This document shows positions 13,656-44,950 of a DNA stretch of 64,000 nucleotides, in pieces. The DNA is from Neptuniibacter halophilus (lineage in GTDB: Bacteria; Pseudomonadota; Gammaproteobacteria; Pseudomonadales; Balneatricaceae). The notes under the pieces are model-generated. The model saw only the letters and a program-made list of their open reading frames with translations, did not search any database and was not told where the DNA came from. A program made the translations under genes and the position numbers. How positions within the stretch are numbered: the first letter of the stretch is position 1; every line of letters starts with the position of its first letter. Location: NCBI RefSeq assembly GCF_030295765.1, contig NZ_AP027292.1:2542001-2606000 (forward strand), in the 5' to 3' direction.

Positions 13656-14047
13656 GCCTAAGTTCCTCGATTTAGCAGATCCGCAAGCGGCGGATCGCGA
13701 CATTAAATCAGCAGAAAAGCCTGTTTTGCTCAGAGTTGGCAGGGCTTTTCCAAACCTGACAATGATACAGCAAAGAAATGCCCGCATGAATCCTGTTTCG
13801 AGCAAAAGTTGCCTTTTATGATCAATAAATTGCCTATTGGAAACTTTTTGTCGGATCAGCCCTGACAGCCTGCGATTAAACCCGCTCCGCACACTGGCTT
13901 CTGTGATGATTCACGATCAGGTAAGTCCTGTGCAGTCATATTGAGGTCATGTAAAAAGCAGCGCCGCGGGTTTGCGTGGTTTCGGCAGCAGGTCAAATTC
14001 CCCGTGACTGGGTTATAATGGCGGTTTTTCTCCGGTTTGGATGGGTT
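13656..14047. other. Intergenic region between divergent aminotransferase and uvrB genes
   Basis: This 392-bp stretch holds no convincing gene. It contains a good -10 hexamer for uvrB (TATAAT, 14014-14019) with only a weak -35 about 17-18 bp upstream. I looked for a LexA box (CTGT-N8-ACAG) for uvrB and found only CTGT-N8-ACGA near 13902, which I do not accept. Confidence 0.5.
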
Positions 14048-16069
14048 ATGAAAGAGCGCTTTAAGGTTCACTCTCCGTTCTCCCCTGCAGGTGATCAGCC
14101 GCAGGCGATTCGTGAGCTGGTAGAGGGTATAGAATCCGGTCTGGCGGCCCAGACGCTGCTCGGCGTTACCGGTTCGGGTAAGACCTTTACCGTGGCTAAT
14201 GTGATTGCTCAGGTGCAGCGCCCGACCATTATTATGGCGCACAACAAAACACTGGCTGCCCAGCTTTACGGTGAGTTTAAAGAGTTCTTCCCGAATAACG
14301 CCGTGGAATACTTCGTTTCCTACTATGACTATTACCAGCCGGAAGCTTACGTTCCCTCCTCTGATACCTTTATCGAGAAGGATGCTTCGATAAACGATCA
14401 TATTGAACAGATGCGTCTGTCAGCGACCAAGGCGCTGCTGGAACGGGAAGATGCGATTATCGTGGCCACCGTTTCTGCCATCTATGGTCTGGGTGATCCT
14501 AAGTCCTATCTGGGCATGATGCTGCACGTTGATCGTGGCGATATTATCGATCAGCGCGGGATTTTGCGCCGCCTGGCGGAACTGCAGTACACCCGTAATG
14601 ATGTGGAACTGCATCGTGGTACTTACCGGGTGCGCGGCGATGTGATCGATATATTCCCGGCGGAGTCCGAGAAAGAGGCGATCCGCTTAGAACTGTTTGA
14701 TGAAGAGATCGAAGAGATCAGTAGCTTTGATCCGCTGACCGGTGAAGTCCTGAAACGAATGCCCCGGGCAAGCATCTACCCTAAAACTCACTACGTAACC
14801 CCCCGGGAAACCCTGCTGCAGGCGGTGGAAAAAATTAAGGATGAGCTGCATGGCCGACTGCAGCAACTGCGCGAAAACAACAAACTGGTTGAGGCGCAGC
14901 GTCTGGAGCAACGCACCCTGTACGATATGGAGATGATCATGGAGCTGGGTTACTGCTCCGGGATCGAGAACTACTCCCGTTATCTTTCCGGGCGCCAGCC
15001 GGGAGAGGCACCGCCAACCCTGTTCGAGTATCTGCCGGATAATGCCCTGCTGGTGATCGATGAATCCCATGTCACGGTGCCGCAGATCGGCGCCATGTAT
15101 CGTGGTGACCGTTCGCGTAAGGAAACGCTGGTGGAGTATGGCTTCCGTCTGCCGTCGGCGCTGGATAACCGGCCGATGAAGTTTGAGGAGTGGGAGCGGG
15201 AATCGCCGCAGATGATTTTTGTCTCGGCCACCCCGAGCCGTTACGAAGCGGAAAATCAACAGCAGGTGGTGGAGCAGGTAGTTCGGCCGACGGGTCTGGT
15301 TGACCCGGTGGTGGAGGTGCGCCCTGCGACGACTCAGGTGGATGATCTGCTGTCTGAAATTCAGAAAACTGTGGCGAAAAAAGAGCGCGTGGTGGTCACT
15401 GTGCTGACCAAGCGAATGGCTGAAGATCTGACCGAGTATCTGGATGAGCATGGCGTTCGGGTACGTTACCTGCATTCGGATATTGATACGGTAGAGCGGG
15501 TAGAGATTATCCGTGATCTGCGTATCGGTGAATTTGATGTGCTGGTGGGGATCAACCTGTTGCGTGAGGGGATCGATATGCCGGAGGTGTCTCTGGTGGC
15601 GATTCTGGATGCGGATAAAGAGGGCTTCCTGCGTTCAGATACCTCGATGATCCAGACCATCGGCCGGGCCGCGCGAAATGTGAACGGTAAGGCTATCCTT
15701 TATGCAGACCGGGTGACCGGGTCGATGCAGCGGGCGATGGATGAAACCGAAAGGCGCCGGCGTAAGCAGATCGAGTTTAATGAGGCTAACGGCATTGTGC
15801 CGAAGGGCATCAGTAAGTCGGTGGCGGATATTATGGAAGGTGCCAGCACCATTCCGGGCCGTAAGGCGAATAAGAGCAGCCGTAAGGTGGCTGAACCGGC
15901 TACAGAGTATCAGACCGATCCGGCGCAGATGTCGGCCAAAGAGCTGGCTCGCCTGATGACTCAGATGGAAGACAAAATGTACGAAGCGGCCAAAAATCTG
16001 GAATTTGAACAGGCGGCGAAATACCGGGATGAGCTGGAGAGTCTGAAACAGCACAGTTTTATTAACTAG
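14048..16069 (+). CDS. uvrB: Excinuclease ABC subunit B
   Basis: The 673-aa UvrB helicase-like subunit of nucleotide excision repair. It takes the damaged site from UvrA and presents it to UvrC. Walker A is GVTGSGKT at residues 39-46, the damage-binding beta-hairpin is [20 protein letters not shown] (about residues 92-111), and the DESH box is near residue 337. Helicase motifs V-VI include [20 protein letters not shown], and a C-terminal UVR domain ([14 protein letters not shown]) binds UvrC. I chose ATG 14048 ([11 protein letters not shown]); the longer frame adds 24 residues unlike UvrB. Full family length. Confidence 0.97.
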
Positions 16070-16101
16070 TGAGGCCCGCAGGGGGCTCTGGAGTCAGTTG
16101 A

Positions 16102-16893
16102 GTGTTAAACCGATGGTTATGCCTGTTGACCCTGATGATACCCGTGGGGTTACAGGCCGCGGAACAGGCGGGTAAGGTCGTGCTCAGTGTAGGTAAAAAC
16201 ACTGCGCAACTGGATGCGCAGCCGCCACGCGCGTTGAAGCGCAACGGCCCGGTTTATGTGCGAGACCAGATCAGCACCGGCGAGCGTGGTCAGTTGCAGT
16301 TGCGTCTGAGCGATGGTTCCCGGGTGTCTCTGGAAAACAATACCCTGTTTACCCTTGAGCAGCACCGTTATCCGGAGGATAGCCCGCAGCAGGGGCGTGC
16401 GGTTTATCAACTGATTAAGGGTGGTTTACGCACCATCACCGGGGCGATCAGCGCAGCGGAGCCGGATAATTACGCACTCAAGACACCGATCGCGACGATC
16501 GGTGTGCGCGGTACCCATTACAGTCTGTTCTTCTGCGACCAGAGTTGTTCTGAGAGCAGTGGTCGTCCGCGCGGACTCTGGGGGCAGGTGCTGGAAGGCA
16601 CCATCGTTGTTAAGGTTGCGGAGCATCAGAGCGATGTGCCGGCAGGCAAACATTTCTTTCTTGAAGCCGGCCAGCGTCAGCCTCTGATTCAGTCTGAGTC
16701 GTTTACCGCTGAACAGTTGCAGTCCCGGACTGCGGTACTGGATACAGTGCCCGACGCTGCGCTGCCGGATCTTGACCGCCAGCCGCTGTCACTGGAGCAG
16801 GAAGTACAGCGGATTACTATCGACCCCGATCTGAAAATGGATCGTGTGCCGGCACAGACAAGTCCGCTGGATGCCAGCCCGAACAACTATTAG
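16102..16893 (+). CDS. Exported FecR-domain protein, first copy
   Basis: A 263-aa protein with a signal peptide (ending GLQA) and a single FecR domain at about residues 35-185: LSDGSRVSLENNTLFTL, then TPIATIGVRGTHYSLFF. A CDQSC pair follows, and the C-terminal tail is Pro/Asp-rich. This is the free-standing FecR domain, not the FecI-linked antisigma type, since no sigma factor or TonB receptor is nearby. The GTG start has TGGAG 8 nt upstream. It is probably periplasmic or cell-wall-facing. It pairs with the second FecR protein at 18386 around the Slam-like barrel gene. Confidence 0.82.
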   Translation: MLNRWLCLLTLMIPVGLQAAEQAGKVVLSVGKNTAQLDAQPPRALKRNGPVYVRDQISTGERGQLQLRLSDGSRVSLENNTLFTLEQHRYPEDSPQQGRAVYQLIKGGLRTITGAISAAEPDNYALKTPIATIGVRGTHYSLFFCDQSCSESSGRPRGLWGQVLEGTIVVKVAEHQSDVPAGKHFFLEAGQRQPLIQSESFTAEQLQSRTAVLDTVPDAALPDLDRQPLSLEQEVQRITIDPDLKMDRVPAQTSPLDASPNNY

Positions 16894-16933
16894 CCGACGG
16901 CTGGCGCTGCTATCACAGTAAGCTCTGTTGCGG

Positions 16934-16962
16934 TTGACCGATCAGGGAATAATCGTTTTAAA
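16934..16962 (+). promoter_or_regulatory. Candidate sigma-70 promoter for the Slam-like/FecR pair
   Basis: TTGACC (16934-16939) and TTTAAA (16957-16962) are spaced by 17 bp. They lie 114 bp upstream of the TTG start at 17076. Confidence 0.4.
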
Positions 16963-17075
16963 CGCCACCTAATTCCCCTTTTAGGCGTAAGGGCTAAGTT
17001 CTGGATTGGCAGTTCAGCAAAAGGCTGTTAAGTTGCATTAATCAGGACTGAGGAATATGTACAAGGGGAGTTGCA

Positions 17076-18377
17076 TTGAAAACCCTGACCCGATGTTGTC
17101 TAGTAGGGCTGATGAGTGTTGCGCCGTGGGTGCAGGCGGATCCGGTAACGGATATTCAGGCATTACTTGATCAGGCAGAATACAGCCGCGCCTATCAGGT
17201 TGCGCTACAGCACCTGGATCAGTATGAGGGGGATCCGGCGTTTGATCTGCCCTATGCCGTTGCGGCCATCGACAGTGGCCACCCGAGTGAGGGGATCTTT
17301 GCTCTGGAGCGGGTGTTATTCCTGCAACCCAACCATCAGTTGGCACGCCTTGAACTGGCACGGGCTTACTTCCTGCTCGGGCAGATGGCTCAGGCGCGCA
17401 GTCTGTTTGAACAGGTCAGACAAAGCCAGCCGCCCGCCAACGTCATCAGCCGTATTGATCTTTTTCTTGCCCGCATAGATAACCGGGAACGTGCCTCACA
17501 GACACGTTTCAGCGGGTTTGCAGAGCTCTGGGCGGGCTACGACAGTAATATCAACTCCGGCCCGGGTGGGCAGACCCAACTGGTTACCCTCAGTGATAGT
17601 GCACTGGGCCGTGATGATCAGTTTAATCTGCTGCGTCTGGGCGGTCGGGTCGAGCATCATTACTCAAAGCGCGGTGCGCTGCAATTTGATGCCAGCAGTG
17701 ATCTGCGTTACTACCACACGGAGCCGGAACAGGATTACAAACGTTTTCGCGTCTCCGGAGGTCACCTCTGGAAAAACTCTCACTCGCAGTACCTGCTTCA
17801 GTTCAGTTACGACAAATACCAGTTGGATCGTGAAGATTACCGGGATCAGGTCGGGGCCAAACTGGTCTGGAGTCAGCAATTGACGGGCCGCTCGGTGATC
17901 AAGAGTTTCGCTGCAATCAACGGGCTGGATTACGTCGATAACAACTGGAAAGACGCAACGCTGTACACCCTGGGCAGTAATTACTTTTATGCTGCTGATG
18001 GTGGCTGGAAACCACTCTATTTCATGGGTGGTTTTATCGGTGCCCAGAAACCGGAAAATGGCGGTATTCTCGCCGACGGGCAGGTTGATCAGACCTTTTA
18101 CGGCGTGAGTGCCGGGGCGCAGTTCAGCCCGTCTGAAAGCCTTCGGTTTACTCCTGCACTGACCTACCAGAGCAGTGACTATCAGGGTGAAGACTGGCTC
18201 TACGGAATTAAACGCAGCGATGATTTCCTGCTTCTGAACCTGAATATGGAGTGGCGATTTAATCCATCCTGGAGTCTGCAGGCGAACTACAGTTTCACGG
18301 ATGTCGACTCCAATATTGAACTTTATGAATATGATCGTCAGCAGGTGATGCTGGGTCTGCGCTACAACTTTCAGTGA
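17076..18377 (+). CDS. Slam-like outer-membrane protein (TPR plus beta-barrel)
   Basis: A 433-aa protein with a signal peptide (ending WVQA) and TPR-like helices at about residues 22-135 (SEGIFALERVLFLQPNHQLA, then RLELARAYFLLGQMAQA). An all-beta C-terminus of about 290 residues has alternating aromatic strands and ends in YNFQ, typical of an outer-membrane barrel. This order matches surface lipoprotein assembly modifiers (Slam/NMB0313), which move proteins to the cell surface, but family membership is a pattern call. The TTG start has AAGGGGAG just upstream. The stop overlaps the leader of the second FecR gene, so the two are translationally linked. Confidence 0.72.
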   Translation: MKTLTRCCLVGLMSVAPWVQADPVTDIQALLDQAEYSRAYQVALQHLDQYEGDPAFDLPYAVAAIDSGHPSEGIFALERVLFLQPNHQLARLELARAYFLLGQMAQARSLFEQVRQSQPPANVISRIDLFLARIDNRERASQTRFSGFAELWAGYDSNINSGPGGQTQLVTLSDSALGRDDQFNLLRLGGRVEHHYSKRGALQFDASSDLRYYHTEPEQDYKRFRVSGGHLWKNSHSQYLLQFSYDKYQLDREDYRDQVGAKLVWSQQLTGRSVIKSFAAINGLDYVDNNWKDATLYTLGSNYFYAADGGWKPLYFMGGFIGAQKPENGGILADGQVDQTFYGVSAGAQFSPSESLRFTPALTYQSSDYQGEDWLYGIKRSDDFLLLNLNMEWRFNPSWSLQANYSFTDVDSNIELYEYDRQQVMLGLRYNFQ

Positions 18378-18385
18378 GGTCTGAG

Positions 18386-20086
18386 ATGATTCTACGTTTT
18401 ACAACTGCCTCCCTGTTGCTGATTCTGACCACACTGGTTCAGGCGGCCCCGGAGAGTATCGGCAAAGTAATCCTCAGCTTCGGTCAGAATATGGCGGTGG
18501 CGGCTGATGGTTCAGAGCGGGAGCTGAAGCGCCAGTCTGAGCTCTATGCGGAAGATCTGCTTAAGACCGGCGCGAAAGGCCGGCTTCAGGTGCGTTTCAG
18601 CGACGGCTCGCGGCTCTCCCTGAAACCCGGCACCGAGTTCAAAATCGAGCAATACCAGTTTGCCAGCGAAAACCCGGAAGAGGGAAAAGCGCTGTATAAG
18701 TTGCTGAAAGGCGGGATGAGAACGCTCTCCGGCCAGATCGGCAAATCCGATCCCGAAGCCTATCAACTGGATGCCGTCGTGGCGACGATCGGTATTCGTG
18801 GCACCGATTTCAGCATTACCCGTCGGGGTGACAAGCTCAGCGGTTCGGTGACGGATGGGCGGATTAATGTTCAGCCACGTCAGGGTGATGACCGGGATAT
18901 TCCTGCGGGCCGATCCTTTGAGCTGCTCGGTGCGGCCGGCAGTATCAGAGTATTTGATACCCCGGTGAGTGCGCAGGGTTCTGATGAATCCGGCGATGAA
19001 GAAACCGATGAAACGCAGAATGAAGAAGAGGAAGAGAGCACCGATGCCGACGAATCTCAGGCAGAGGAGGAACCTTCAGCCTCTGATGAATCCTCTGCCT
19101 CTGAAGAACCTTCAATATCTGAACAATCTTCAACGTCCGAATCAGGCGCTACCGCTGTAACCCAGCTCACCGCAGAGAACACCACGCTGACCACGTCAGT
19201 GGACAGTACTACCGACAGTGCGCTGGTCCCGACCACTGATCCGGTTACAGGTGGTACGGTCAGCGAGTCAACAACCGCACCCAACCCTACCGGCACCGGT
19301 ACGGTGGCAGCCAGAGGTACCGTAGCGGGTGTCGCCTTTTTCGACAAAGACAGTCTGCTTGGGCTGAAGGCGAACAGCGGTTCACTGATGCCGGACGGCC
19401 AGACCCAGTTGGTGCTGGATAACAACAGTCTGACCGGGATCTATTTTGTCGAGACCCAGACCAATGGCGGTGACTGTAATCCCTGTACCTTCTCGGCAGA
19501 AAATGCCTCGCTGAAAGACAATGGCAGTTTTGCTACCTCAGACAACGCCAATATCTACTGGGGACGCTGGGATGGCGATTTCCAGTTGCTTGAGAATGGC
19601 GTGCTGCAGGATACCGATCAGTCCTTCCTGTTTATCTACAGTGACCGCCTGACCCCGCTCAGCGTGCTGCAGAACAAAACCGGTACATATACGTATTCTG
19701 CTGTCAGTGGCAAAGGCTCAGTGCAGACCGAAAGTGGTCTCTACGGCAGTATCGATTATTTCTCCACGATCAGCGTGGACTGGAACAATCAGAAAGTTAC
19801 TTCTGCCAGTCTGGATCTGAACGGCTTCTCCGATTCGCGCAGTTATGACCTGAACAGCGCGGAAGCGATGGGAATTGAGGAGCTGTATAACGGTAAAGAG
19901 CTGAATATTACCGGCAGTTGCAGCGGCGGAGGCTGTATTGGTTCCTCAGAGCTGGAAGGGCATATGTCGGTGAACTTTGTGGGTGATTCCGCAAACAGCA
20001 TCATCAGCAGCTTCAGTGCCTCGGAGAAGGGTGTCGCGGGCGCGGTGTCGGATGTGGGTGTCACCGGGACGGCGGTATTCCAGTAA
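18386..20086 (+). CDS. Large exported FecR-domain protein with acidic linker and beta-rich C-terminus
   Basis: A 566-aa protein. A signal peptide (ending LVQA) precedes a FecR domain (about residues 20-180; FSDGSRLSLKPGTEFKI, VVATIGIRGTDFSIT). A strongly acidic, low-complexity linker of Glu/Asp/Ser spans about 195-250, then a Thr/Ser-rich spacer to about 310. The C-terminal 250 residues are beta-rich, with YWGRWDGDF and Cys pairs CNPC and CSGGGC. No lipobox is present. I chose ATG 18386 because GAGGT lies 5 nt upstream. As the gene directly follows the Slam-like barrel, it is the obvious candidate cargo. The C-terminal domain is unassigned, with a loose look of the small beta-barrels of Slam clients. 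Confidence 0.75.
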   Translation: MILRFTTASLLLILTTLVQAAPESIGKVILSFGQNMAVAADGSERELKRQSELYAEDLLKTGAKGRLQVRFSDGSRLSLKPGTEFKIEQYQFASENPEEGKALYKLLKGGMRTLSGQIGKSDPEAYQLDAVVATIGIRGTDFSITRRGDKLSGSVTDGRINVQPRQGDDRDIPAGRSFELLGAAGSIRVFDTPVSAQGSDESGDEETDETQNEEEEESTDADESQAEEEPSASDESSASEEPSISEQSSTSESGATAVTQLTAENTTLTTSVDSTTDSALVPTTDPVTGGTVSESTTAPNPTGTGTVAARGTVAGVAFFDKDSLLGLKANSGSLMPDGQTQLVLDNNSLTGIYFVETQTNGGDCNPCTFSAENASLKDNGSFATSDNANIYWGRWDGDFQLLENGVLQDTDQSFLFIYSDRLTPLSVLQNKTGTYTYSAVSGKGSVQTESGLYGSIDYFSTISVDWNNQKVTSASLDLNGFSDSRSYDLNSAEAMGIEELYNGKELNITGSCSGGGCIGSSELEGHMSVNFVGDSANSIISSFSASEKGVAGAVSDVGVTGTAVFQ

Positions 20087-20094
20087 CGGCTTGT

Positions 20095-20853
20095 TCAGAG
20101 CTGGATCAGATCGCCGTGGTGCAGCCGGTCGATCTGCCATTGGGGCAGAATCTGCCGGCACTGCTGCATGATCAGATCTTCAAACCCGGGCTTGAGGTGA
20201 GTGATCATGATCCGGGTGGGGTGTTGTAACAGGCTTAGCTGTTGCGCCAGATGGCTGGGGGTCAGGTGACCGCTGAGACGGGCCAGTTCATCGACTTCAT
20301 CGGTAAAGGAAACGTCGATGATAAGCAGATCGGGCTGATGCTGGTTGAGGATCGGCCACAGCGGATCATTAATACCGTTGTCACCGGTAAATGCAAAAGA
20401 GCTGTTCTGGTCAGCAATCAGATAACCCGCCGTTGGCGTTGGGTGGCTGGCGGGCAGAACCCGGATCTGTTTACCCTGCAGGCTCAGTTCGTCGCCAACC
20501 TGAACCTTGTGCAGGCGAATGATCGGCTCTGCCTCGGGCAGGCAGGTGTAGTCCGGCCAGACCGTCCAGTTAAAAATATGACTCTGCAGAGCGTCGATGA
20601 CTTCAGGCAGAGCATAAACATCAATCGGGTGGCGGTGCTGGTCGTAGATGGTTGCCAGCATCAGGGGTAATCCGGCGATGTGGTCGATGTGTGCGTGGGT
20701 GATCAGCACATCACGGATCTGCAGCATCTGCTCCATTTTCAGCAATTCAACGCCGGTGCCGGCGTCCAGCAGAAGGGTTTCGTCCAGAAGGAAAGTCGTT
20801 GTTTTCAGGCCGTGGCCGATGCCACCGCTACAACCAAGAATTTCGATTTTCAC
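20095..20853 (-). CDS. Metallo-beta-lactamase-fold hydrolase, probable class II cyclic-nucleotide phosphodiesterase
   Basis: A 252-aa MBL-fold enzyme. The metal motif is THAHIDH (His53, His55, Asp57, His58). The Asp in FTGDNG (near residue 156) and the His in MITHLKPG (near 219) complete the two-metal site. The N-terminal start MKIEILGCSGGIGHGLKTT and the HAHIDHIAGLP context resemble class II cAMP phosphodiesterases (PDEase_II, yeast PDE1/Vibrio CpdP type) more than RNase Z or glyoxalase II. It lies opposite a cyclase-containing operon, which supports cAMP or cGMP hydrolysis. It converges on the FecR gene with an 8-bp gap. Confidence 0.72.
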   Translation of the reverse strand: MKIEILGCSGGIGHGLKTTTFLLDETLLLDAGTGVELLKMEQMLQIRDVLITHAHIDHIAGLPLMLATIYDQHRHPIDVYALPEVIDALQSHIFNWTVWPDYTCLPEAEPIIRLHKVQVGDELSLQGKQIRVLPASHPTPTAGYLIADQNSSFAFTGDNGINDPLWPILNQHQPDLLIIDVSFTDEVDELARLSGHLTPSHLAQQLSLLQHPTRIMITHLKPGFEDLIMQQCRQILPQWQIDRLHHGDLIQL

Positions 20854-20916
20854 TTCTCACCCCGGCGGACGCTATCTAAAATCAGAATCGTAACAGGTAC
20901 ATTATGGTAGTTGTGC

Positions 20917-23169
20917 ATGACAAAATCGACTGAGAGCGAAACCCAGCAGTTCTACTCCGGGCTGACCAAAGTCCTGAGTAAAATCCATCAGGCCCGCAGT
21001 TTTGAGCAGGCTTATCCACTGGTTGAAAAAGCCTTGCTTGCCCTGTTCCATGCGCAACGTATGACCGTATATCAACGTAACCGCAGTAGCAAGGATATTG
21101 TCTCCCGCTTCAAAACCGGTGATGACCTGACCGAAATCCGAGTCCCGGTCAGCGCAGGTTCGATTGCCGGTTATGTGGCCCTGAGTCGGCAGCCTTTGAT
21201 CATCGCGGATGTGCATAATGCTGAGGAGCTGAAAAAGATCCATCCGGAACTGCGCTTTAACGGTTCTTTTGAAAAAGATATCGAGTTTAAAAGCCGGTCA
21301 ATGCTGGTGCTGCCGATTCTGTTTAACGAAGTATTGCTGGGTGTGATTCAGATTATCAATCGCCGCGATGGTCAGCCTTTCACCGATTCAGATCTGAAGC
21401 GCGGCGAACAGTTTGCCGAGTTACTCGGGCAAAAATTCCGCTACGATTTCGGCTGCACTGAAGGCCCCTATGATTACCTGCTGCAGCAGAACCTGATCGA
21501 TGAAAAACGTTTTCAGCAACTAGAGCAGCGGGCGGATGCGAGAACGCCGTTAAGTCGCCTGCTGCGAGAACAGGCCCGGCTCAGCAGCAGTCAGATAGGC
21601 GAGTCTCTGGAGTGTTACTATCAGGTACCGTTTGTCGCTTACAATCCGGAAAAATACTATCTGCATCCCATTTGCGAACAGGTGAATAAAGCCTACCTGC
21701 GGAACAACAATGTTGTGCTGCTGGCGGAGCAGGGCGGAGATAATCTGCTGATCCTGATCGATGATCCGAACGACAGTCAGCGCCTGATGGAGATTAAAAA
21801 CGTAGCCTCCGGTCAGGAGACGCAGATCTGTGTCGGTTTGCTGGATGATATCCATCAGTATCTGGGGGTCAGCGTCGGTAGTGTGCAGCAGGAAGGTGCG
21901 AATCTCAGCTCTCTGCTGGATGAGCTGGAGGATGCTCAGGAACTGGACGCGGATGAGGTGGCTGAAGGCGATGAGGTCTCCGAAGAGGATTCCACCGTGG
22001 TGCGGCTGGTTAACCGGGTGCTGCTGGATGCCAAGCGCTTAAGGGCTTCGGATGTGCATATCGAACCGGGTAAGGGGCGTACACCCACCAGCGTCAGGAT
22101 GCGTATTGACGGGGTCTGTCAGGAGATTATTCAGATACCGGCGAGTCATGCCCGGGCAACCGTCTCCCGGATCAAAATCATGTCGCGGCTGGATATCGCC
22201 GAAAAACGCCTGCCGCAGGACGGCAAGTTTGCCGTGCGTCTGCAGGGGCAGCCGCTGGAGGTGAGGGTGGCGACCATCCCGACCGTGAATGGTGAAGGGG
22301 TGGTGATGCGTCTGTTGCAGAGCGGCGAGCCGGTACCTTTTGAGCAACTGAATTTTTCCTCACGAAATAAAAAACAGACGGAAGCGTTGTTGCAGAACCC
22401 GCACGGTATTTTGCTGGTGGTCGGGCCGACCGGTTCAGGTAAAACCACCACCCTGCATGCTTTGCTGGCTACCCTGAACACGCCCGATCGAAAGATCTGG
22501 ACCGCAGAGGATCCGGTTGAGATTACTCAGCCCGGGCTGCAGCAGGTGCAGATTCAGCCCAAAACCGGCTTTACCTTCGCCGCTGCGTTGCGGGCATTCC
22601 TGCGTGCTGACCCGGATGTGATTCTGATCGGTGAGATGCGTGATCAGGAAACGGCGCATGCGGCGGTCGAGGCCTCGTTAACCGGCCACCTGGTGCTCTC
22701 AACCCTGCATACTAACTCGGCCCCGGAAACCATTACCCGGTTGCTGGATCTGGGGATAGACCCGGTGAGCTTTGCCGATGCCCTGCTCGGCATACTGGCG
22801 CAACGTCTGGTCCGTACGCTCTGTCCGAGTTGTCGTAAGCCCTATCGTGCCAGCGAAGAGGAGGCCGCTTTTCTCCAGCGCCGTTATGGGCAGCGCGCGG
22901 CCGAGCTGAAGTGGGATAAGCTGAAGCTTTATCGTGCTGAAGGCTGCGAAGAGTGCAACCAGACCGGGTATCGGGGCCGGACCGGTATCCATGAACTGCT
23001 GGTTTCCACACCGGCCCTGTGTGAACAGATTAACCGCGGCGGCTCGATTGCTGAGATCCGTGCTCAGGCGGAGAAGGATGGCATGCGCAGTCTGCAGCAG
23101 GATGGCATCTACAAAGTGCTGAAAGGGGATATCGATTTTGATCAGTTACGTCGCGTGGTGTCGGAATAA
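20917..23169 (+). CDS. GAF-domain GspE/PilB-family secretion ATPase
   Basis: A 750-aa ATPase. A GAF domain spans about residues 20-175 (SAGSIAGYVALSRQPLIIAD, VLPILFNEVLLGVIQIINRR). A GspE N-terminal-like domain follows (about 180-330), then an acidic linker (330-355) and the catalytic core. The core has ASDVHIEP, Walker A GPTGSGKTTT at about 503, the Walker B/Asp box DPDVILIGEMRDQETA, the His box STLHTN and a tetra-Cys zinc motif (CPSC, CEEC). This is the PilB/GspE family that powers type IV pilus or type II secretion assembly. No other pilus or secretion gene is nearby. ATG 20917 was chosen over TTG 20911. The cyclase gene starts 3 bp after its stop. Confidence 0.9.
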   Translation: MTKSTESETQQFYSGLTKVLSKIHQARSFEQAYPLVEKALLALFHAQRMTVYQRNRSSKDIVSRFKTGDDLTEIRVPVSAGSIAGYVALSRQPLIIADVHNAEELKKIHPELRFNGSFEKDIEFKSRSMLVLPILFNEVLLGVIQIINRRDGQPFTDSDLKRGEQFAELLGQKFRYDFGCTEGPYDYLLQQNLIDEKRFQQLEQRADARTPLSRLLREQARLSSSQIGESLECYYQVPFVAYNPEKYYLHPICEQVNKAYLRNNNVVLLAEQGGDNLLILIDDPNDSQRLMEIKNVASGQETQICVGLLDDIHQYLGVSVGSVQQEGANLSSLLDELEDAQELDADEVAEGDEVSEEDSTVVRLVNRVLLDAKRLRASDVHIEPGKGRTPTSVRMRIDGVCQEIIQIPASHARATVSRIKIMSRLDIAEKRLPQDGKFAVRLQGQPLEVRVATIPTVNGEGVVMRLLQSGEPVPFEQLNFSSRNKKQTEALLQNPHGILLVVGPTGSGKTTTLHALLATLNTPDRKIWTAEDPVEITQPGLQQVQIQPKTGFTFAAALRAFLRADPDVILIGEMRDQETAHAAVEASLTGHLVLSTLHTNSAPETITRLLDLGIDPVSFADALLGILAQRLVRTLCPSCRKPYRASEEEAAFLQRRYGQRAAELKWDKLKLYRAEGCEECNQTGYRGRTGIHELLVSTPALCEQINRGGSIAEIRAQAEKDGMRSLQQDGIYKVLKGDIDFDQLRRVVSE

Positions 23170-23172
23170 GCG

Positions 23173-25365
23173 ATGAAACAGAGACGGATTCGCACCCTGC
23201 TCGGATTAGTGCTGAGCCTGCTGATGATGCTGCCCCTGTTTCAGGGGGAGCGACTGGCACTGCTGGACCGGTTCGAATATGACCTCTATGACCTGCGTCT
23301 GAGACACTTTGCGCGCTATGCCCAGGATCCGCGGATTGTGATCGTAGATATCGATGAAAAGAGTCTGGCGGAGGAGGGACGCTGGCCGTGGAGCCGGGAT
23401 CGGCTGGCACTGATGCTGGATCAGCTTTTTGATAATTACGGCGTGGCCATTGTCGGCTTTGATATGGTCTTCTCTGAAGCGGATCGCAGTGTCGATCTGC
23501 AGCGGCTTCAGGCTTTAAGGTTGCAGCAGCAGGAGGCTGATCTGGATAGCCTGCTGGCGCAACTGGACTCCGATCAGCTTTTCGCACAGGCATTGACTGA
23601 TCGCCCGGTGGTACTGGGTTACCTGTTTGACCGCAGTGCAAAGCAGCTACAGGTGGGTGATCCGGGTATACCTGTACTGGAGGCGTCCGGGGTGCTGCAG
23701 CGGCTGCCCATCCCTCAGGCCAGCGGTATTATCTCCAGTCTGGACCAGTTGCACAGTGCCAGTGTCTGGAACGGTTTCTTTGATAATCCGATGGTAGACC
23801 CCGACGGTGTCTACCGCAGGGTTCCGTTGCTGCAACGCTACCAGAGTAATTACTACCCCTCGCTCTCCCTGTCGATGCTGCTGGCACTGTTTGGCGAGCA
23901 GGAAGTGCAGCCGGTTCTGGAAAGTGATGCCACCGGAGAGCGTCAGGCGCTGGTGGCTGTTGAGGCAGCCGGGATTCGAATTCCTGTGGATCAGTACGGG
24001 GCTGTGCTGGTGCCTTATCGCGGCCCGCAGGGCAGTTTTCCCTACGTTTCGGCCAGTGATGTGATCTCGGGGCGGGCTGACCCGGCACAACTGGAAGGAA
24101 CCGTGGTTCTGGTCGGCACCAGTGCGGCGGGGCTGCTTGATCTGCGGGTAACGCCGATGAGCAACCGCTATTCAGGGGTTGAGGTGCACGCCAATATTCT
24201 CTCCGGAATGCTGGATGAACGGATTCTGCATCAGCCGGATTACACGCAGGGGGTTGAACTGGTGCAGCTTCTGATCAGTGGTCTGTTGCTCTCGCTGCTG
24301 ATTCCCCGGGTGTCGGCACTGACTTCGACGCTGATTACCCTGGGCTGGATTGGTCTGTTGCTGGCTTTCAATCTTTATGCCTGGGAGCATCTGCTGTGGG
24401 TGATACCGATCGGTTATACCCTGGTCACGGTGATGCTGCTCTATCTGTTTCAGCAGACCACCGGTTATTTCTTTGAAACCCGCAATATTACTCAACTGGC
24501 CGGCCAGTTCGGCCAGTATATCCCGCCGGAAGTGGTGGCGGAGCTGAGCCGGCAGAATCAGTCGGTGCAGCTGAGTGGGGAAAACCGCGAGATGAGCGTG
24601 TTTTTCTCGGATATCCGTGGTTTTACCAGTTTATCGGAGCAGCTTAATCCGCAGCAGCTTACCCGGTTGATGAATATCTACCTGACCGGGATGACCCGGG
24701 TGATTCACGAGCAGCGGGGCACGGTGGATAAGTACATCGGTGATGCGGTGATGGCCTTCTGGGGGGCACCTCTGGAAGATCCGCAGCATGCACGGCATGC
24801 GTTGCTGGCGGCGATGGAGATGCTACGGGTACTGCCGGAACTGAATCAAACCCTTCGGGATGAAAATCTGCCTGAAGTTCAGGTGGGGATGGGGATCAAC
24901 TGCGGCCCGATGAATGTGGGTAACATGGGGTCTTCATTCCGTATGACTTACACGGTGATGGGCGATGCGGTGAACCTCGCTTCCCGGCTGGAGGGGCTGA
25001 CCAAGTATTACGATACCCCGTTACTGGTGAGTGGTGAGCTGGTGGCTGAAGTCCCGGATTTCCTGTTCCGGCATCTGGATCGGGTTCAGGTTAAGGGGCG
25101 CAGTGAGCCTGTGGATATCTATCAGCCGTTGCTGCCGCTGGATCAGGCCAGCGCAGAACAAAAGCGTGATGTGCAACAGTTCGGGCAGGCGATTGCGCTC
25201 TATGCCGGGCAGCAATGGACGGAGGCAGATGCGCTCTTTGCCGGGTATCTGCAGCGCCACCCGGGGGACCGGATGGCGCAGATCTATCGTCAGCGAATTG
25301 CAGAATTTACCTTGCAGGCGCCTGCCGACGACTGGTGCGGCGTGTTCAGCCACACCTCCAAGTAA
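23173..25365 (+). CDS. CHASE2-domain class III adenylate/guanylate cyclase
   Basis: A 730-aa membrane receptor cyclase. TM1 is at residues 6-24, a periplasmic CHASE2 domain covers about 35-340 (RIVIVDIDEKSLAEEGRWPW, GFDMVFSEAD) and three membrane helices lie at about 350-435. The cytosolic class III cyclase domain (about 465-620) has the first metal Asp in FFSDIRGFTSL (near 478) and the second in VDKYIGDAVMAFWGAP. The YTVMGDAVNLASRLEGL segment carries the catalytic Asn and Arg. ATP versus GTP preference cannot be fixed by eye. GGAATAAG precedes the ATG and the gene is tightly coupled to the GAF-ATPase. CHASE2 senses an unknown periplasmic cue. Confidence 0.92.
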   Translation: MKQRRIRTLLGLVLSLLMMLPLFQGERLALLDRFEYDLYDLRLRHFARYAQDPRIVIVDIDEKSLAEEGRWPWSRDRLALMLDQLFDNYGVAIVGFDMVFSEADRSVDLQRLQALRLQQQEADLDSLLAQLDSDQLFAQALTDRPVVLGYLFDRSAKQLQVGDPGIPVLEASGVLQRLPIPQASGIISSLDQLHSASVWNGFFDNPMVDPDGVYRRVPLLQRYQSNYYPSLSLSMLLALFGEQEVQPVLESDATGERQALVAVEAAGIRIPVDQYGAVLVPYRGPQGSFPYVSASDVISGRADPAQLEGTVVLVGTSAAGLLDLRVTPMSNRYSGVEVHANILSGMLDERILHQPDYTQGVELVQLLISGLLLSLLIPRVSALTSTLITLGWIGLLLAFNLYAWEHLLWVIPIGYTLVTVMLLYLFQQTTGYFFETRNITQLAGQFGQYIPPEVVAELSRQNQSVQLSGENREMSVFFSDIRGFTSLSEQLNPQQLTRLMNIYLTGMTRVIHEQRGTVDKYIGDAVMAFWGAPLEDPQHARHALLAAMEMLRVLPELNQTLRDENLPEVQVGMGINCGPMNVGNMGSSFRMTYTVMGDAVNLASRLEGLTKYYDTPLLVSGELVAEVPDFLFRHLDRVQVKGRSEPVDIYQPLLPLDQASAEQKRDVQQFGQAIALYAGQQWTEADALFAGYLQRHPGDRMAQIYRQRIAEFTLQAPADDWCGVFSHTSK

Positions 25366-25375
25366 CGGGCCTGAG

Positions 25376-26968
25376 TCAGTTCAGGCCGGGCAGGCTGGCC
25401 GGGTCAAACTGGTCGATCTGGCGTGGGGTCATGTGTTGCTGCGCATAGGCCAGATAGGTGCCGCTTTCGACAAACAGACGGAACAGGTCGGCATCCAGAT
25501 GATTATCCTCAACCATCCGCCCGAGGATGGTCATCGCCTGAGAGAGCAGCATCCCTTTCTTGTAGGGACGGTCCGGTGAAGTCAGGGCTTCAAAGACATC
25601 GGCAATACACATAATCCGGGCCCGCGTTGACAGGTCGTCTGCTTTCAGTCCGCGGGGATAGCCGCTGCCATCCATATGTTCGTGGTGATTACAGGCGATC
25701 TCCGGTACCTGACGCAGTTGGCGTGGGTAGTTGAGGGATTCCAGCATGTCGATCGATACTTTGATATGGTCACGCATCACCTGCCGTTCTGCATCGGTCA
25801 GGGTGCCTTTGCTGATGCAGAGGTTGTCGATCTCATCCTGTGTCAGCAGGTGACGGCTTTCACCGGTGTCATTGATCCAGCTAATTTCACCAATCGCCAT
25901 GATTCTGGCTTTATCCTCTTCGGCCATAAATTCTGAACCGGTATTGCTGCGGCGGATAAAAGCCAGTTCTTCATCCAGCCGTACAATCTGCTGTTGCAGC
26001 GCGTTCTGTGCCTTGTGCATCGCATCCGCGTCCAGTTCCCGGTGGCGGCGCAGCAGTTCCAGCTCAAGGTGTTGTTTGTATTCATAGAATCGCGCTTCCA
26101 CCAGATCGATCCGGTCAAACATGGTGTGCAGTTTGGTGGCTTTGTCGATGATGTATTCAGGCGTGGTGATCTTGCCGCAGTCATGCAGCCAGGCTGCGAT
26201 TTTCAGCTCATATAGCTCCTGTTCACTGAAACCCATCTCAGCAAACTGCCCCTCTTCGGCCTGATTGACGGCTCCGGCCAGCAGCATAGCGATCTCAGGC
26301 ACCTGCTCACAGTGTTTGCCGGTGACGGGGGATTTATGGTCAATCGCGCGGCCGATCAACTTGATGAAAGACTCAAACAGCAGGCGCTGTGAATCGATCA
26401 GGCGGCGTTTGGTGAGTACCGTCGCAGCCAGTGATGCCAGTGATTCGACCAGATGCTGCATGGTATCGGTAAAGGTGATGATGTTGCCCTGATCATCCTG
26501 ACAGTTGATTAACTGCAGCACCCCGATGACTTCCCCTTCATGGTCCTGAAGCGGAACGCAGAGGAAAGATTTGGAACGATAACTGAGCTGCTTATCAAAC
26601 TTGCGGGTACCGGAAAAATCAAACTCCTCACAGGCGTATGCGTCTGGGATGTTGATGGTCTCCTGCTGAACAAATGTTTGCACAACCACCAGTTTGGAGG
26701 ATTGTTGCTGTGCATTGAAAATCTCAATGCAGGAGAGCTCGCGCGGTTTGCTGTGCATTCCCAGTGACCGGTTGTGGAGAATGGTGAACAGCAGTTCGTT
26801 CTCATTCTCTTCGTTCAGGGTATACAGGGTTCCGCCGTCGGCATTGGTCAGGTACATACAGCCCTGAATAATCCGGTCAAGCAGTTGAATATGATCGCGC
26901 TCAGAGGTCAGGGCGCCGGTCAGGTCGGCCAGTTGTCTGACAACTTCCTGGGTGTCTAAATGGCTCAT
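25376..26968 (-). CDS. GAF-HD-GYP c-di-GMP phosphodiesterase
   Basis: A 530-aa protein: a GAF domain (about residues 15-190; FLCVPLQDHEGEVIGVLQLI) and a C-terminal HD-GYP domain (about 225-505). The metal-binding HD is in AAWLHDCGKITTPEY near 261 and the signature is HHEHMDGSGYPRGL near 426. A long charged helical segment of more than 100 residues separates the HD and GYP motifs, an insertion relative to minimal HD-GYP proteins. It should degrade c-di-GMP to pGpG/GMP. I used ATG 26968; the longer frame adds 28 unconvincing residues. It converges on the CHASE2 cyclase gene, 10 bp away. Confidence 0.88.
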   Translation of the reverse strand: MSHLDTQEVVRQLADLTGALTSERDHIQLLDRIIQGCMYLTNADGGTLYTLNEENENELLFTILHNRSLGMHSKPRELSCIEIFNAQQQSSKLVVVQTFVQQETINIPDAYACEEFDFSGTRKFDKQLSYRSKSFLCVPLQDHEGEVIGVLQLINCQDDQGNIITFTDTMQHLVESLASLAATVLTKRRLIDSQRLLFESFIKLIGRAIDHKSPVTGKHCEQVPEIAMLLAGAVNQAEEGQFAEMGFSEQELYELKIAAWLHDCGKITTPEYIIDKATKLHTMFDRIDLVEARFYEYKQHLELELLRRHRELDADAMHKAQNALQQQIVRLDEELAFIRRSNTGSEFMAEEDKARIMAIGEISWINDTGESRHLLTQDEIDNLCISKGTLTDAERQVMRDHIKVSIDMLESLNYPRQLRQVPEIACNHHEHMDGSGYPRGLKADDLSTRARIMCIADVFEALTSPDRPYKKGMLLSQAMTILGRMVEDNHLDADLFRLFVESGTYLAYAQQHMTPRQIDQFDPASLPGLN

Positions 26969-27025
26969 GATGATCCCGGTAATACAGTGTCTGTAGATAC
27001 TGTGGTCAGAAGCCGGGAGGGTGTC

Positions 27026-27053
27026 AAGAAAAATGCCCCCCGGGAGGGGCATT
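27026..27053 (-). terminator. Terminator of the MoxR-VWA operon
   Basis: AATGCCCC (27032-27039) pairs with GGGGCATT (27046-27053). On the minus strand a T-rich run follows. It lies directly after the VWA gene stop and upstream of the HD-GYP gene. Confidence 0.85.
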
Positions 27054-27056
27054 GAA

Positions 27057-28232
27057 TTACTTCGAAAGGTAGCGGATCGCCTGTTCCATGCCTTCCAGCG
27101 TCAGCGGATACATATGCCCGTCGAGCTGTTCGCGGATTGCCACGGTGCTCTGGGTATACTCCCAGGAGCGGGTGTGACTCGGGTTAAGCCAGATCGCCTT
27201 ATCCCAGGTATCGAGTACCCGTTGCAGCCAGACCTGACCCGTCTCCTCGTTCATATGCTCAACACTGCCGTAGCGGCTGAACAGTTCGTAGGGAGACATG
27301 GCGGCATCGCCGATAAAAATTACCCGGTAATCTTTGCCGTAGGTATGAAGTACATCCAGTGTGGAGACTGCTTCATCAAAGCGGCGGCGGTTATCTTTCC
27401 ACAGCTTCTCGTAGATGCAGTTGTGAAAGTAGTAGTACTCCAGGTGCTTGAATTCGCTGCGCGCTGCGGAAAACAACTGTTCGCAAAGATGGATATAAGG
27501 GTCCATGGAGCCGCCGATGTCGAGAAACAGCAGCACTTTAGCGGCATTATGCCGCTCCGGAACCATTTTAATATCGAGCAGGCCGGCGTTGTCTGCGGTA
27601 GAGCGGATGGTGTCGTTAAGATCCAGCTCTTCCGCTGATCCGGTGCGGGCAAATTTACGCAGTTTGCGCAGTGCAACCTTCATGTTGCGGGTGCCCAGCT
27701 CAACCTGATCGTCGAGATTTTTGAATTGCCGCTTCTCCCAGGCCTTAACCGCACGTTTGTGCTTGCTCTCGCCGCCGATGCGGATCCCTTCCGGGTTGTA
27801 ACCGCTGTGGCCGAAGGGGGAGGTGCCGCCGGTACCGATCCACTTGTTGCCGCCGGCATGCCGGTCATGTTGCTCTTTGAGCCGGTCATTGAGGGTTTCC
27901 AGCAGTTTATCCAGACCGCCCAGTGCCTCGATCTGAGCTTTCTCCTCGTCAGTCAGGTTTTTCAGAAACTCGGCCCGGAGCCAGTCCTCGGGTATCTGGT
28001 CATCGGGGAACAGTTTGAGGTCTTCGAGGCCTTTGAAATAATGGCCGAAAGCACGATCAAAGCGATCAAAGAATTTTTCGTCCTTGACCAGACAGAGCCG
28101 GGCCAGCAGGTAAAAGTCATCCAGACTGGCAAAAGCAACTTTGGCCTGCAGGGCTTCCAGCAGAGTCAGTAGTTCTTTGAGGGTAACCGGAACCTGGGCT
28201 TTGCGCAGGGTGGTAAAGAAATCGATCAGCAT
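27057..28232 (-). CDS. VWA-domain protein (CoxE-like), partner of MoxR ATPase
   Basis: A 391-aa soluble protein with a C-terminal von Willebrand A domain. The metal-site motif reads LFLDIGGSMDPY, with Gly at the first Ser position of the usual D-x-S-x-S. The N-terminal region is helical (FFTTLRKAQVPVTLKELLTL) as in CoxE-like proteins, and a Gly-rich patch (GTGGTSPFGHSGYNPEG) sits mid-protein. Together with the MoxR ATPase 13 bp upstream it forms a chaperone-like pair that remodels or inserts cofactors in unknown client proteins. ATG 28232 is chosen because it starts right after the moxR stop. Confidence 0.87.
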   Translation of the reverse strand: MLIDFFTTLRKAQVPVTLKELLTLLEALQAKVAFASLDDFYLLARLCLVKDEKFFDRFDRAFGHYFKGLEDLKLFPDDQIPEDWLRAEFLKNLTDEEKAQIEALGGLDKLLETLNDRLKEQHDRHAGGNKWIGTGGTSPFGHSGYNPEGIRIGGESKHKRAVKAWEKRQFKNLDDQVELGTRNMKVALRKLRKFARTGSAEELDLNDTIRSTADNAGLLDIKMVPERHNAAKVLLFLDIGGSMDPYIHLCEQLFSAARSEFKHLEYYYFHNCIYEKLWKDNRRRFDEAVSTLDVLHTYGKDYRVIFIGDAAMSPYELFSRYGSVEHMNEETGQVWLQRVLDTWDKAIWLNPSHTRSWEYTQSTVAIREQLDGHMYPLTLEGMEQAIRYLSK

Positions 28233-28245
28233 TGTCTGACAGGCC

Positions 28246-29091
28246 TCAACGCTGGGCGCGGCGAGCCATAAATGCCAGTCGCTCGAGCATGTGTACATCC
28301 TGCTCGTTCTTCAGTAGTGCACCATGCAGCAGTGGAACGGCGTCATTACTGTCGCTGTCACGCAGCACTTCGGCCGGAATATTGTCAGCCATCAGCAGCT
28401 TCAGCCAGTCGATCAGCTCAGAGGTGGAAGGCTTTTTCTTCAGACCGTTGACCGAGCGGACCTCGAAGAAAATCTCCAGTGCTTCCTTAACCAGCGACTG
28501 TTGCAGGTCAGGGTAGTGCACCTTGACGATATCCAGCATGGTCTCGCGGTCCGGGAACTGGATGTAGTGGAAGAAGCAGCGGCGCAGGAAGGCATCCGGC
28601 AGCTCTTTTTCGTTGTTGGAGGTGATGATAATGATCGGACGGTGTCTGGCTTTAACCTGCTCACCGGTTTCGTAAACGCTGAACTCCATCTTATCCAGCT
28701 CAACCAGCAGGTCGTTAGGGAATTCGATATCCGCTTTGTCGATCTCATCGATCAGCAATACTACCTGTTCATCCGCTTCAAAGGCCTGCCACAGCATCCC
28801 TTTTTTGATGTAGTTGGCGATATCGTGAACCCGCTCCTCGCCCAGTTGCGAGTCGCGCAGCCGGGAAACGGCATCGTATTCGTAAAGGCCCTGCTGGGCT
28901 TTGGTGGTGGATTTGATGTGCCAGCAGAGCAGCTTCTTGCCCAGTGCAGAGGCGACCTCTTCTGCGAGCATGGTCTTACCCGTGCCCGGTTCGCCTTTGA
29001 TCAGCAGAGGACGTTGTAGGGTGATGGCGGCATTGACGGCCATACGAAGGTCATCGGTGGCAACGTAATTATCGGTACCTTGAAACTGCAT
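28246..29091 (-). CDS. MoxR-family AAA+ ATPase
   Basis: A 281-aa AAA+ protein. Walker A is GEPGTGKT at residues 33-40 and Walker B LLIDEIDKAD begins near residue 112. Sensor 1 is IIITSNNEKELPDAFLRRC, which includes the arginine finger region. MoxR ATPases work with VWA-domain partners in assembling or activating metalloenzymes and surface complexes, and the partner gene follows directly. The client is not evident from the neighbours. It is the first gene of a two-gene leftward operon. Confidence 0.93.
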   Translation of the reverse strand: MQFQGTDNYVATDDLRMAVNAAITLQRPLLIKGEPGTGKTMLAEEVASALGKKLLCWHIKSTTKAQQGLYEYDAVSRLRDSQLGEERVHDIANYIKKGMLWQAFEADEQVVLLIDEIDKADIEFPNDLLVELDKMEFSVYETGEQVKARHRPIIIITSNNEKELPDAFLRRCFFHYIQFPDRETMLDIVKVHYPDLQQSLVKEALEIFFEVRSVNGLKKKPSTSELIDWLKLLMADNIPAEVLRDSDSNDAVPLLHGALLKNEQDVHMLERLAFMARRAQR

Positions 29092-40291: not shown

Positions 40292-40324
40292 GACAATTCT
40301 CCAGATCTTATTTTTATGTGGCAG

Positions 40325-40356
40325 AGAAAAACTGCCCGCAGCACTGAACTGCGGGC
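40325..40356 (-). terminator. Terminator of the oxidoreductase-dehydrogenase operon
   Basis: GCCCGCAG (40334-40341) pairs with CTGCGGGC (40349-40356). On the minus strand TTTTT follows the stem. It sits between the dehydrogenase stop and the NSS gene start, so the transporter has its own transcript. Confidence 0.8.
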
Positions 40357-40367
40357 GGGATGGTGAT

Positions 40368-41420: not shown

Positions 41421-41434
41421 AGTGGTTTCCTGAA

Positions 41435-44400: not shown

Positions 44401-44950
44401 CGGAGGGGTAAAGCACCGGCATCATCGCATCCATAAATGCGTAGTCGCTCTGATGCGGTAGGGTTGATGATTTGCTGGCATGGTCGTCACCGGCGATGGC
44501 GAGCACACCGCCGTAGGGCGTGGTGCCAAAAGCGTTGGCGTGTTTGAATACGTCGCCAGTACGGTCAACGCCGGGGCCTTTGCCATACCAGAGGCCGAAC
44601 ACACCATCGTATTTTGCGCCTTCAAACAGGTTGACCTGCTGCGATCCCCAGACGGCGGTCGCACCCAGATCTTCGTTGACACCGGGCTGAAATTTAATGT
44701 TGTAACGGCTCAGGTAATCCCGGATCTGCCACAGGGTTTTGTCAAAATTCCCCAGCGGCGAACCGCGGTAACCGGAGATAAAACCTGCGGTATTGAGGCC
44801 AGCGCGCTGGTCTCGCTCAGCCTGCAGCATGGGCAGGCGTGCCAGGGCCTGACTGCCGGTGATGTAAACCCGGCCAGACTGTTTTTCCCACTTATCGTTG
44901 AGTGAGATCGGATCGGCAGCCTGGGTTGTTGGCGTTGAACGCTTAGTCAT
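41435..44950 (-). CDS. Fused indolepyruvate ferredoxin oxidoreductase (IorAB-type)
   Basis: A 1171-aa single-chain 2-oxo-acid:ferredoxin oxidoreductase. The N-terminal pyrimidine-binding domain (about residues 20-400) is followed by a TPP domain with [28 protein letters not shown] and GDGTYFHSG...[12 protein letters not shown] cluster-binding stretch with [18 protein letters not shown] and further Cys follows (near 660-720). The gamma-type domain starts at [20 protein letters not shown] (near 745). It decarboxylates aryl- or branched-chain 2-oxo acids to acyl-CoA. AGGAG lies 8 nt before ATG 44950. The fused form is common in Proteobacteria. Confidence 0.93.

Follow-up and report, generated by a model that had tools for sequence, protein, structure and literature searches.

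The window analyzed here, a stretch of 64,000 nucleotides from the 4.1 Mb genome of Neptuniibacter halophilus (contig NZ_AP027292.1), harbors seven neighboring genes that encode two FecR-domain proteins, an outer-membrane beta-barrel protein, a metallo-beta-lactamase-fold (MBL) phosphodiesterase, a GAF-containing ATPase, a CHASE2 receptor cyclase, and a GAF-HD-GYP protein. An initial annotation, made from the sequence alone, described these genes as a possible envelope-sensing module. The seven reading frames are found at the place and on the strands given there, and each family assignment is backed by Pfam; the end coordinate 26968, where the minus-strand HD-GYP gene starts, agrees with several orthologues that start at the corresponding residue. 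We add a match to MshEN in the ATPase and a C-terminal domain in the second FecR protein (19289-20083). Envelope sensing is the best reading of the locus, as judged from linkage, domain fusions and the fold predicted for the domain of FecR2. The constituents of the locus are:

16102..16893, plus strand: fecR1, FecR-domain protein of 263 amino acids (PF04773, E = 1.1e-11), no cargo domain
17076..18377, plus strand: TPR and beta-barrel outer-membrane protein of DUF560/SlipAM type, that is, of the type of the type 11 secretion system (T11SS/Slam), 433 amino acids (PF04575, TPR_19)
18374..20086, plus strand: fecR2, encoding a FecR domain (PF04773, E = 2.5e-13), an acidic Ser/Thr/Glu-rich linker and a C-terminal cargo-like domain
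about 18557-18865, plus strand: FecR domain of FecR2, residues 62-164 (PF04773)
19289..20083, plus strand: C-terminal domain of FecR2 with a predicted TbpB/HpuA/NHBA/fHbp-like fold (T11SS cargo fold)
20095..20853, minus strand: MBL-fold class II cyclic-nucleotide phosphodiesterase, probably acting on cAMP (PF02112, 8.9e-16; PF12706, 5e-20)
20911..23169, plus strand: GAF, MshEN-like and GspE/PilB-type ATPase (T2SSE, 2.7e-127; GAF, 3.3e-12; MshEN, 7.1e-06)
23173..25365, plus strand: class III CHASE2 receptor adenylate cyclase with K520/T594 (CHASE2, 3e-59; Guanylate_cyc, 4e-22)
25376..26968, minus strand: GAF-HD-GYP protein, probable c-di-GMP phosphodiesterase (HD_5, 6.9e-39; GAF, 1.9e-13)

The genes are flanked by uvrB upstream and by a CoxE/MoxR pair downstream. 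The barrel and fecR2 genes overlap by 4 bp, the ATPase and cyclase genes are separated by 3 bp, and two pairs are convergent, namely fecR2 and the MBL gene (8 bp apart) and the cyclase and HD-GYP genes (10 bp apart). The N-termini of FecR1 and FecR2 resemble signal peptides, as judged by eye. The barrel reading frame starts with TTG; the database copy begins 12 residues downstream.

The barrel protein and the C-terminal domain of FecR2

The C-terminal domain of FecR2 is the most informative part of the locus. Its AlphaFold2 model (pLDDT 90.7) has a fold like that of TbpB, HpuA, NHBA and fHbp, where the rows of the structural comparison (VIA-align) comprise many entries of few distinct proteins. 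None of the six proteins scanned has a Pfam match in this domain, and no sequence relative is found in the PDB (one match, E = 0.28). The domain is therefore detected solely through its predicted fold. A homologue search with the domain returned three proteins, including that of the window.

T11SS cargo is characterized by a C-terminal TbpB-type beta-barrel domain and by a gene close to that of the T11SS outer-membrane protein. FecR2 has the former according to its predicted fold and the latter by the overlap with the barrel gene, a neighborhood that recurs in the class-wide sample described below. The barrel protein in turn combines the DUF560/SlipAM C-terminus and the N-terminal TPR of T11SS outer-membrane proteins: PF04575 is matched with 25.2 bits (cut-off 22) and TPR_19 at residues 64-120 (E = 2.1e-08), preceded by a signal-like start (by eye only). 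PF04575 is also matched, with weak scores, in 42 of the 50 barrel homologues scanned, which were picked from the best 120 of 584; the NCBI name of several homologues is 'surface lipoprotein assembly modifier'. FecR2 may be exported through the barrel. In some relatives the cargo-like domain of FecR2 occurs in tandem, with three copies in locus L070, two in L071 and about seven in L083, the last within a FecR protein of more than 2200 residues next to a barrel gene (L083:2700-9545). A hidden Markov model (HMM) of the domain matches 16 of the 30 FecR proteins at barrel loci and none of the 22 at barrel-less loci, a contrast that is partly built in because the HMM was derived from barrel loci.

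Linkage in the family, in the class and at other CHASE2 loci

Relatives were represented by 96 genomes, including that of the window, with a family subset of 60 genomes; counts and p-values given here are without phylogenetic correction. Barrel (E <= 1e-40) and cyclase (E <= 1e-90) are both present in 16 of the 60 family genomes and linked in 13 of these. In the other three (G015, G018, G032) they are on separate contigs, and the cyclase contig of G032 ends beside a sequence matching the C-terminal domain of FecR2, so that this unlinked case may be an assembly break (the contigs were not joined). Barrel and ATPase are linked in all eight family genomes having both. ATPase orthologues (at least 57% identity) exist in 14 of the 96 genomes, with the cyclase at the same locus in 13 (exception: G029). 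The cyclase, found in 24 of the 60 family genomes, is present wherever the barrel (16/16) or the ATPase (14/14) is, and in 20 of the 21 genomes with the MBL gene (E <= 1e-80). Among the 17 fetched loci of relatives with a cyclase, 15 also contain the HD-GYP gene and 12 the MBL gene; one of these misses, L084, is a 4.2-kb contig. In genome G001, the cyclase gene appears as two separate matches (L069:5337-7845).

All seven genes of the set are present and linked in the window, but the set as a fixed unit, as proposed in the initial annotation, is too rigid: fecR1, the ATPase, the FecR-barrel block and the MBL gene vary separately. An orthologue of fecR1 occurs in seven of 20 loci of relatives, all from the same genus and all adjoining uvrB. 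In G002, G003, G004, G025 and G037, the locus has no ATPase but retains the genes for the barrel, FecR2, MBL, cyclase and HD-GYP. Genome G008 (L085) has the row MBL-ATPase-cyclase-HD-GYP, lacks the FecR-barrel block and has no barrel match.

A second sample was obtained through a profile of the FecR2 C-terminal domain, run on 369 genomes of the class; the profile was built from the same family, and the sample is a fairer test than the comparison of barrel loci. The profile has matches in 20 of the 369 genomes, including that of the window, and the other 19 supplied 20 loci (two of them from G150; one place, G286:C319, was left out). A barrel gene lies alongside the domain in 19 of the 20 loci, the exception L262 being a 3.7-kb contig; the barrel frame of L259 matches the barrel HMM and nothing in Pfam. 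At 18 of the 20 loci, the domain is part of a reading frame that also encodes a FecR domain (L257 is split, L262 short), and the row includes a further FecR gene at L253, L255 and L260. The cyclase is at the same locus in nine of the 20. A cyclase match (E <= 1e-60) exists in all 20 genomes with the domain, that of the window included, compared to 121 of the 369 overall (p = 6.6e-11); the match is partial in G102 (75% complete), and with this cut-off the 121 include matches that span the C-terminal half only. Genome G215 (L188/L260), from another family, contains the complete set in changed order.

FecR genes are also found close to other CHASE2 genes. Within the genome of the window, a FecR gene is less than 5 kb away from three of the four CHASE2 genes (chance about 8e-6). 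At about 1.85 Mb (L215:3005-7390), a FecR gene, an OmpA-family gene and a gene for a CHASE2-GAF-HD-GYP fusion (1037 aa) are consecutive; at about 2.49 Mb (L216:4010-6771), a LysM-FecR gene adjoins a CHASE2 gene with no output domain by Pfam. In Arcobacter (L151), a fusion of PDEase_II, GAF and HD-GYP (782 residues) is encoded beside a CHASE2 cyclase, with genes for a TPR protein (TPR_Slam match) and FecR opposite the fusion. A cluster arisen by chance, which the initial annotation expected unlinked loci in related genomes to reveal, is rejected by the family linkage (barrel-ATPase 8/8, barrel-cyclase 13/16), by the class-wide sample and by the proximity of CHASE2 and FecR in the own genome.

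Seen from the cyclase, the best 80 of at least 579 titled loci were considered, 25 of them shorter than 17 kb. HMM matches to MBL (36), HD-GYP (36), GAF-ATPase (27), FHA (26), FecR (24), PP2C (24), a CHASE2-type Ser/Thr kinase (19), two-partner secretion proteins (TPS, 19), ShlB (19), a rhodanese with cyclic nucleotide monophosphate (cNMP) binding domain (14) and the barrel (6) are found among them. Three layouts recur. The first is a beta-proteobacterial operon of CHASE2-kinase, PP2C, FHA, cyclase and MBL, often with cNMP-rhodanese, GAF-ATPase and GAF-HD-GYP in addition (by HMM; L091, L096 and L100 in part also by Pfam). At L091, L093, L096, L097, L100, L102, L112 and L125, the genes of this layout lie on one strand, with MBL or barrel-FecR, as a dense signaling island. 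The second layout, in Oxalobacteraceae, joins the genes for HD-GYP and cyclase with two-partner secretion genes and a FecR gene; these assignments are by HMM only, and of four frames of L123 chosen by length three had no match in Pfam. At L122-L147, mostly from Oxalobacteraceae, HMM matches to ShlB/TPS and FecR lie close to this HD-GYP/cyclase pair, where they seem to stand in for barrel and cargo. The third layout is the barrel-FecR arrangement of the window, which includes L096 in a beta-proteobacterium. Two-partner secretion genes are matched in 19 of the 80 loci, often with FecR, and an exported surface structure therefore recurs next to these cyclases.

Probable cyclic-nucleotide enzymes and the GAF-ATPase

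The cyclase residues D480, K520, D524, T594, N601 and R605 are invariant in all 16 alignment rows, from which the broken copy of L069 and the cut-off copy of L084 were left out. We take D480 and D524 to be the metal-binding Asp pair, K520 and T594 to contact the substrate, and N601 and R605 to act on the transition state; given these roles, the window protein carries the residues of a class III adenylate cyclase. The initial annotation had also proposed synthesis and degradation of cGMP. As the residues are of the adenylate type, cGMP is unsupported, and we reject it as a product. By sequence, the catalytic part has bacterial CyaB (3r5g) and the adenylate cyclases 2w01 and 1wc0 among its best matches in the PDB. 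The likeness to these class III enzymes is limited to the catalytic part, and the CHASE2 part has no solved relative among the PDB matches of the cyclase.

The nearest solved chain of the MBL protein is 3',5'-cyclic-nucleotide phosphodiesterase 1 (4ojv), and THxHxDH is found in 14 of 14 MBL proteins; among NCBIfam models, that for cyclic-nucleotide phosphodiesterases is below cut-off and those for ribonuclease Z score higher, all far below their cut-offs. The HD-GYP protein carries both motifs of its family, HDCGK and HHEHMDGSGYP, and has 4mcw, a metal-dependent phosphohydrolase, as best PDB sequence match. HDxGK is kept in 14 of 17 HD-GYP rows (the misses are two mis-cut frames and one truncated), and strict HHExxDGSGYP in nine of 17. 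Adenylate cyclase, cAMP phosphodiesterase and c-di-GMP phosphodiesterase are the probable activities of the three proteins. The HD-GYP gene is adjoined by genes for a MoxR-type AAA ATPase and a CoxE-type VWA protein (27057-29091), likewise in L066 and L067.

For the GAF parts of both GAF proteins, the best PDB matches are cyclic-nucleotide phosphodiesterases; that of the HD-GYP protein also matches adenylate cyclase 1ykd. Binding of cAMP by these GAF domains is a possibility. The host genome has seven matches to the cNMP-binding domain, which could serve as readers of cAMP.

The GAF-ATPases form a separate group of GspE/PilB-type proteins. In a tree of 43 rows (25 of the 52 homologues plus the window protein were used; own_L168 is a long row), 26 GAF-ATPases and L020, which has no GAF match in Pfam, are split from 16 other ATPases by a 100/100 branch. 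The RLG-type motif [RK]LGxx[LIV], which we assume to mark the MshEN receptors of c-di-GMP, is found in none of the 52 homologues in the stretch tested, and binding of c-di-GMP by the MshEN part is rejected. The initial annotation regarded the ATPase as a secretion-type motor, and we examined whether it drives a pilus or type II-like machine of its own, to be switched on by the module. Walker A and Walker B motifs in all 52 homologues and the GspE/PilB-type catalytic domain are what such a motor would have. However, the ATPase has no T2SSF/PilC platform gene of its own, as both T2SSF genes of the genome adjoin other ATPases; no pilus gene occurs among the eight scanned neighbors of homologues in L187, L191, L196 and L198; and the five family loci named above have lost the ATPase while the rest stays. 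We therefore drop the claim of a dedicated pilus or type II secretion motor and consider this role improbable.

Outside the main locus, the window contains a fused indolepyruvate ferredoxin oxidoreductase family protein (1182 aa) together with a dehydrogenase and a sodium-dependent transporter (38879-44983); the dehydrogenase matches ScyB below cut-off.

A candidate route from the cell surface to cyclic nucleotides

We propose that the locus encodes an envelope-to-cytoplasm signaling module in which an exported FecR-cargo sensor acts on an adenylate cyclase, a reading to which we give an even chance. The Slam-like barrel would export FecR2, or thread it partly to the surface. The FecR domain of FecR2, together with FecR1 where present, would then signal the state of this structure, linked to the surface, to the CHASE2 domain in the periplasm; the export by the barrel, the contact of FecR and CHASE2, the direction of signaling and the enzyme activities are the conjectural steps. 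In response the cyclase would produce cAMP, the MBL phosphodiesterase would degrade it, and the GAF-HD-GYP protein would tie the signal to the breakdown of c-di-GMP, with the GAF-ATPase as an accessory and replaceable output. Gene content, linkage, domain fusions, the predicted fold and the cyclase residues are computed observations, and the module reading is supported by family linkage, the reordered set of G215, the fusions at L151 and L215, the fold of the FecR2 domain and the class-wide co-occurrence. A more specific version, in which a T11SS is used for signaling, with a chimeric FecR-cargo protein exported via its own Slam-like pore and its exported or threaded state read by the CHASE2 adenylate cyclase, is put forward tentatively.

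Several results weigh against a signaling module. Eight long-flanked loci with a FecR-cargo/barrel pair have no local cyclase, and the flanking genes scanned at six of these are mostly housekeeping genes. The SlipAM score of the barrel protein is low, and BBP2_2 scores higher. The MBL gene is on a different contig in six genomes (G017, G018, G032, G044, G055 and G056). The motif N[KR]xnFx3DE (NKFDE), presumably that of cNMP-binding GAF domains, is incomplete: the GAF domain of the window ATPase keeps N, R, F and D without E, and the HD-GYP proteins have no K/R in nearly all rows, so that feedback of cAMP onto the HD-GYP protein and the ATPase is no more than a possibility. CRP-like sites show no excess in the 64-kb window (22 matches compared to 25.3 expected) and none is located within the gaps 16894-17075 and 20854-20910; autoregulation through CRP sites is rejected on these grounds. 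The N-terminal part of the ATPase is found in 13 of the 369 class genomes, that of the window included. At the 12 other loci, L188 contains the whole reordered set, L190 FecR and cyclase, and L198 MBL, and the remaining nine, all outside the family, have no other module gene nearby (L197 extends over only 9 kb). A cyclase match (E <= 1e-60) is present in six of these 12 genomes, near the base rate of 121/369. Since the ATPase mostly stands alone outside the family and its genomes have the cyclase at a frequency near the base rate, we regard it as an optional recruit.

Part of this evidence would also be expected if the locus combined two independent neighbors. One would be a T11SS exporter with a FecR-bearing cargo, either an adhesin or a protein of the matrix; the other would be a cyclic-nucleotide node of cyclase, phosphodiesterase, HD-GYP protein and ATPase, with no more than a general regulatory effect on surface genes. 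The separate loss of blocks, with the cyclic-nucleotide row of G008 retained without a barrel match, the eight cyclase-less loci, and the adhesin-like tandem arrays of cargo domains agree with this explanation. The cyclase match in every FecR-cargo genome, the recurrence of the linkage in differing gene orders and the presence of FecR close to two further CHASE2 genes in the own genome argue against it, and we consider it possible but rather unlikely. The FecR proteins might instead be classical regulators of cell-surface signaling that act with a TonB receptor and an extracytoplasmic function (ECF) sigma factor, as they belong to the same Pfam family (PF04773). Yet the ten proteins encoded at 13976-29091 contain no match to a sigma-factor family and none to TonB receptors above cut-off (25.1 bits for the barrel, with 27 required), in a search confined to these proteins and not extended to partners encoded elsewhere, and FecR2 has a signal-peptide-like start and a cargo-like end. 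A Fec-type system is thus highly improbable.

Returning to the signaling module, its novelty, as claimed in the initial annotation, holds in part. CHASE2 cyclases of Campylobacterota that are mostly clustered with genes for cAMP phosphodiesterase, FecR and TPR proteins have been described by bioinformatics (PMC9239204, 2022), with one pathway and horizontal transfer suggested in the relevant passages. These four gene kinds are shared with the window and cluster here as well, and the Arcobacter locus found here resembles that cluster with its CHASE2 cyclase, MBL-GAF-HD-GYP fusion, TPR_Slam-matching TPR protein and FecR. The core is therefore already reported, and the module is not wholly undescribed. 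A T11SS exporter, a cargo fold, an HD-GYP partner and a GAF-ATPase are all absent from Section 9 of that paper. Within the reach of the searches made here, an exporter of T11SS type, the chimera of FecR and cargo, and the class-wide tie of the latter to the cyclase appear to be new. As in T11SS with TbpBBD-type cargo (Slam/TXISS; relevant passages of PMC8406197 and PMC12282271), a SlipAM-type barrel gene overlaps a gene whose product has a predicted TbpB/HpuA/fHbp-like fold at the C-terminus; unlike there, the cargo carries FecR at its N-terminus, and a cyclase match exists somewhere in each of the 20 sampled genomes (one partial). The words 'FecR', 'cyclase' and 'CHASE2' do not occur in the main texts of these two papers, and none of five papers retrieved from open PMC text for T11SS contains 'FecR domain'. 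The operon of LysM-FecR and CHASE2 histidine kinase known as BiofilmReg in Burkholderiales and P. aeruginosa (PMC5192318) likewise places a FecR partner beside a CHASE2 receptor, as does the LysM-FecR/CHASE2 pair L216, whereas its output is a histidine kinase and the relevant passages describe no exporter and no cyclase. A FecR-domain protein is also listed among the targets of the cAMP regulator Clr in the portion of PMC5498481 concerned. Searches of open PMC text returned no paper on CHASE2 together with two-partner secretion, nor on CHASE2 together with an FHA domain and adenylate cyclase.

If a T11SS is indeed used for signaling in this way, it would constitute a trans-envelope route from the surface to cAMP and c-di-GMP that needs no TonB, ECF sigma factor or histidine kinase, and two-partner secretion would take the place of the pore in other lineages. 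In 2016 the input of CHASE2 receptors was described as unknown (in the part of PMC5192318 that concerns them). The recurrent exported partner offers a testable input for CHASE2, namely a surface state that depends on secretion.

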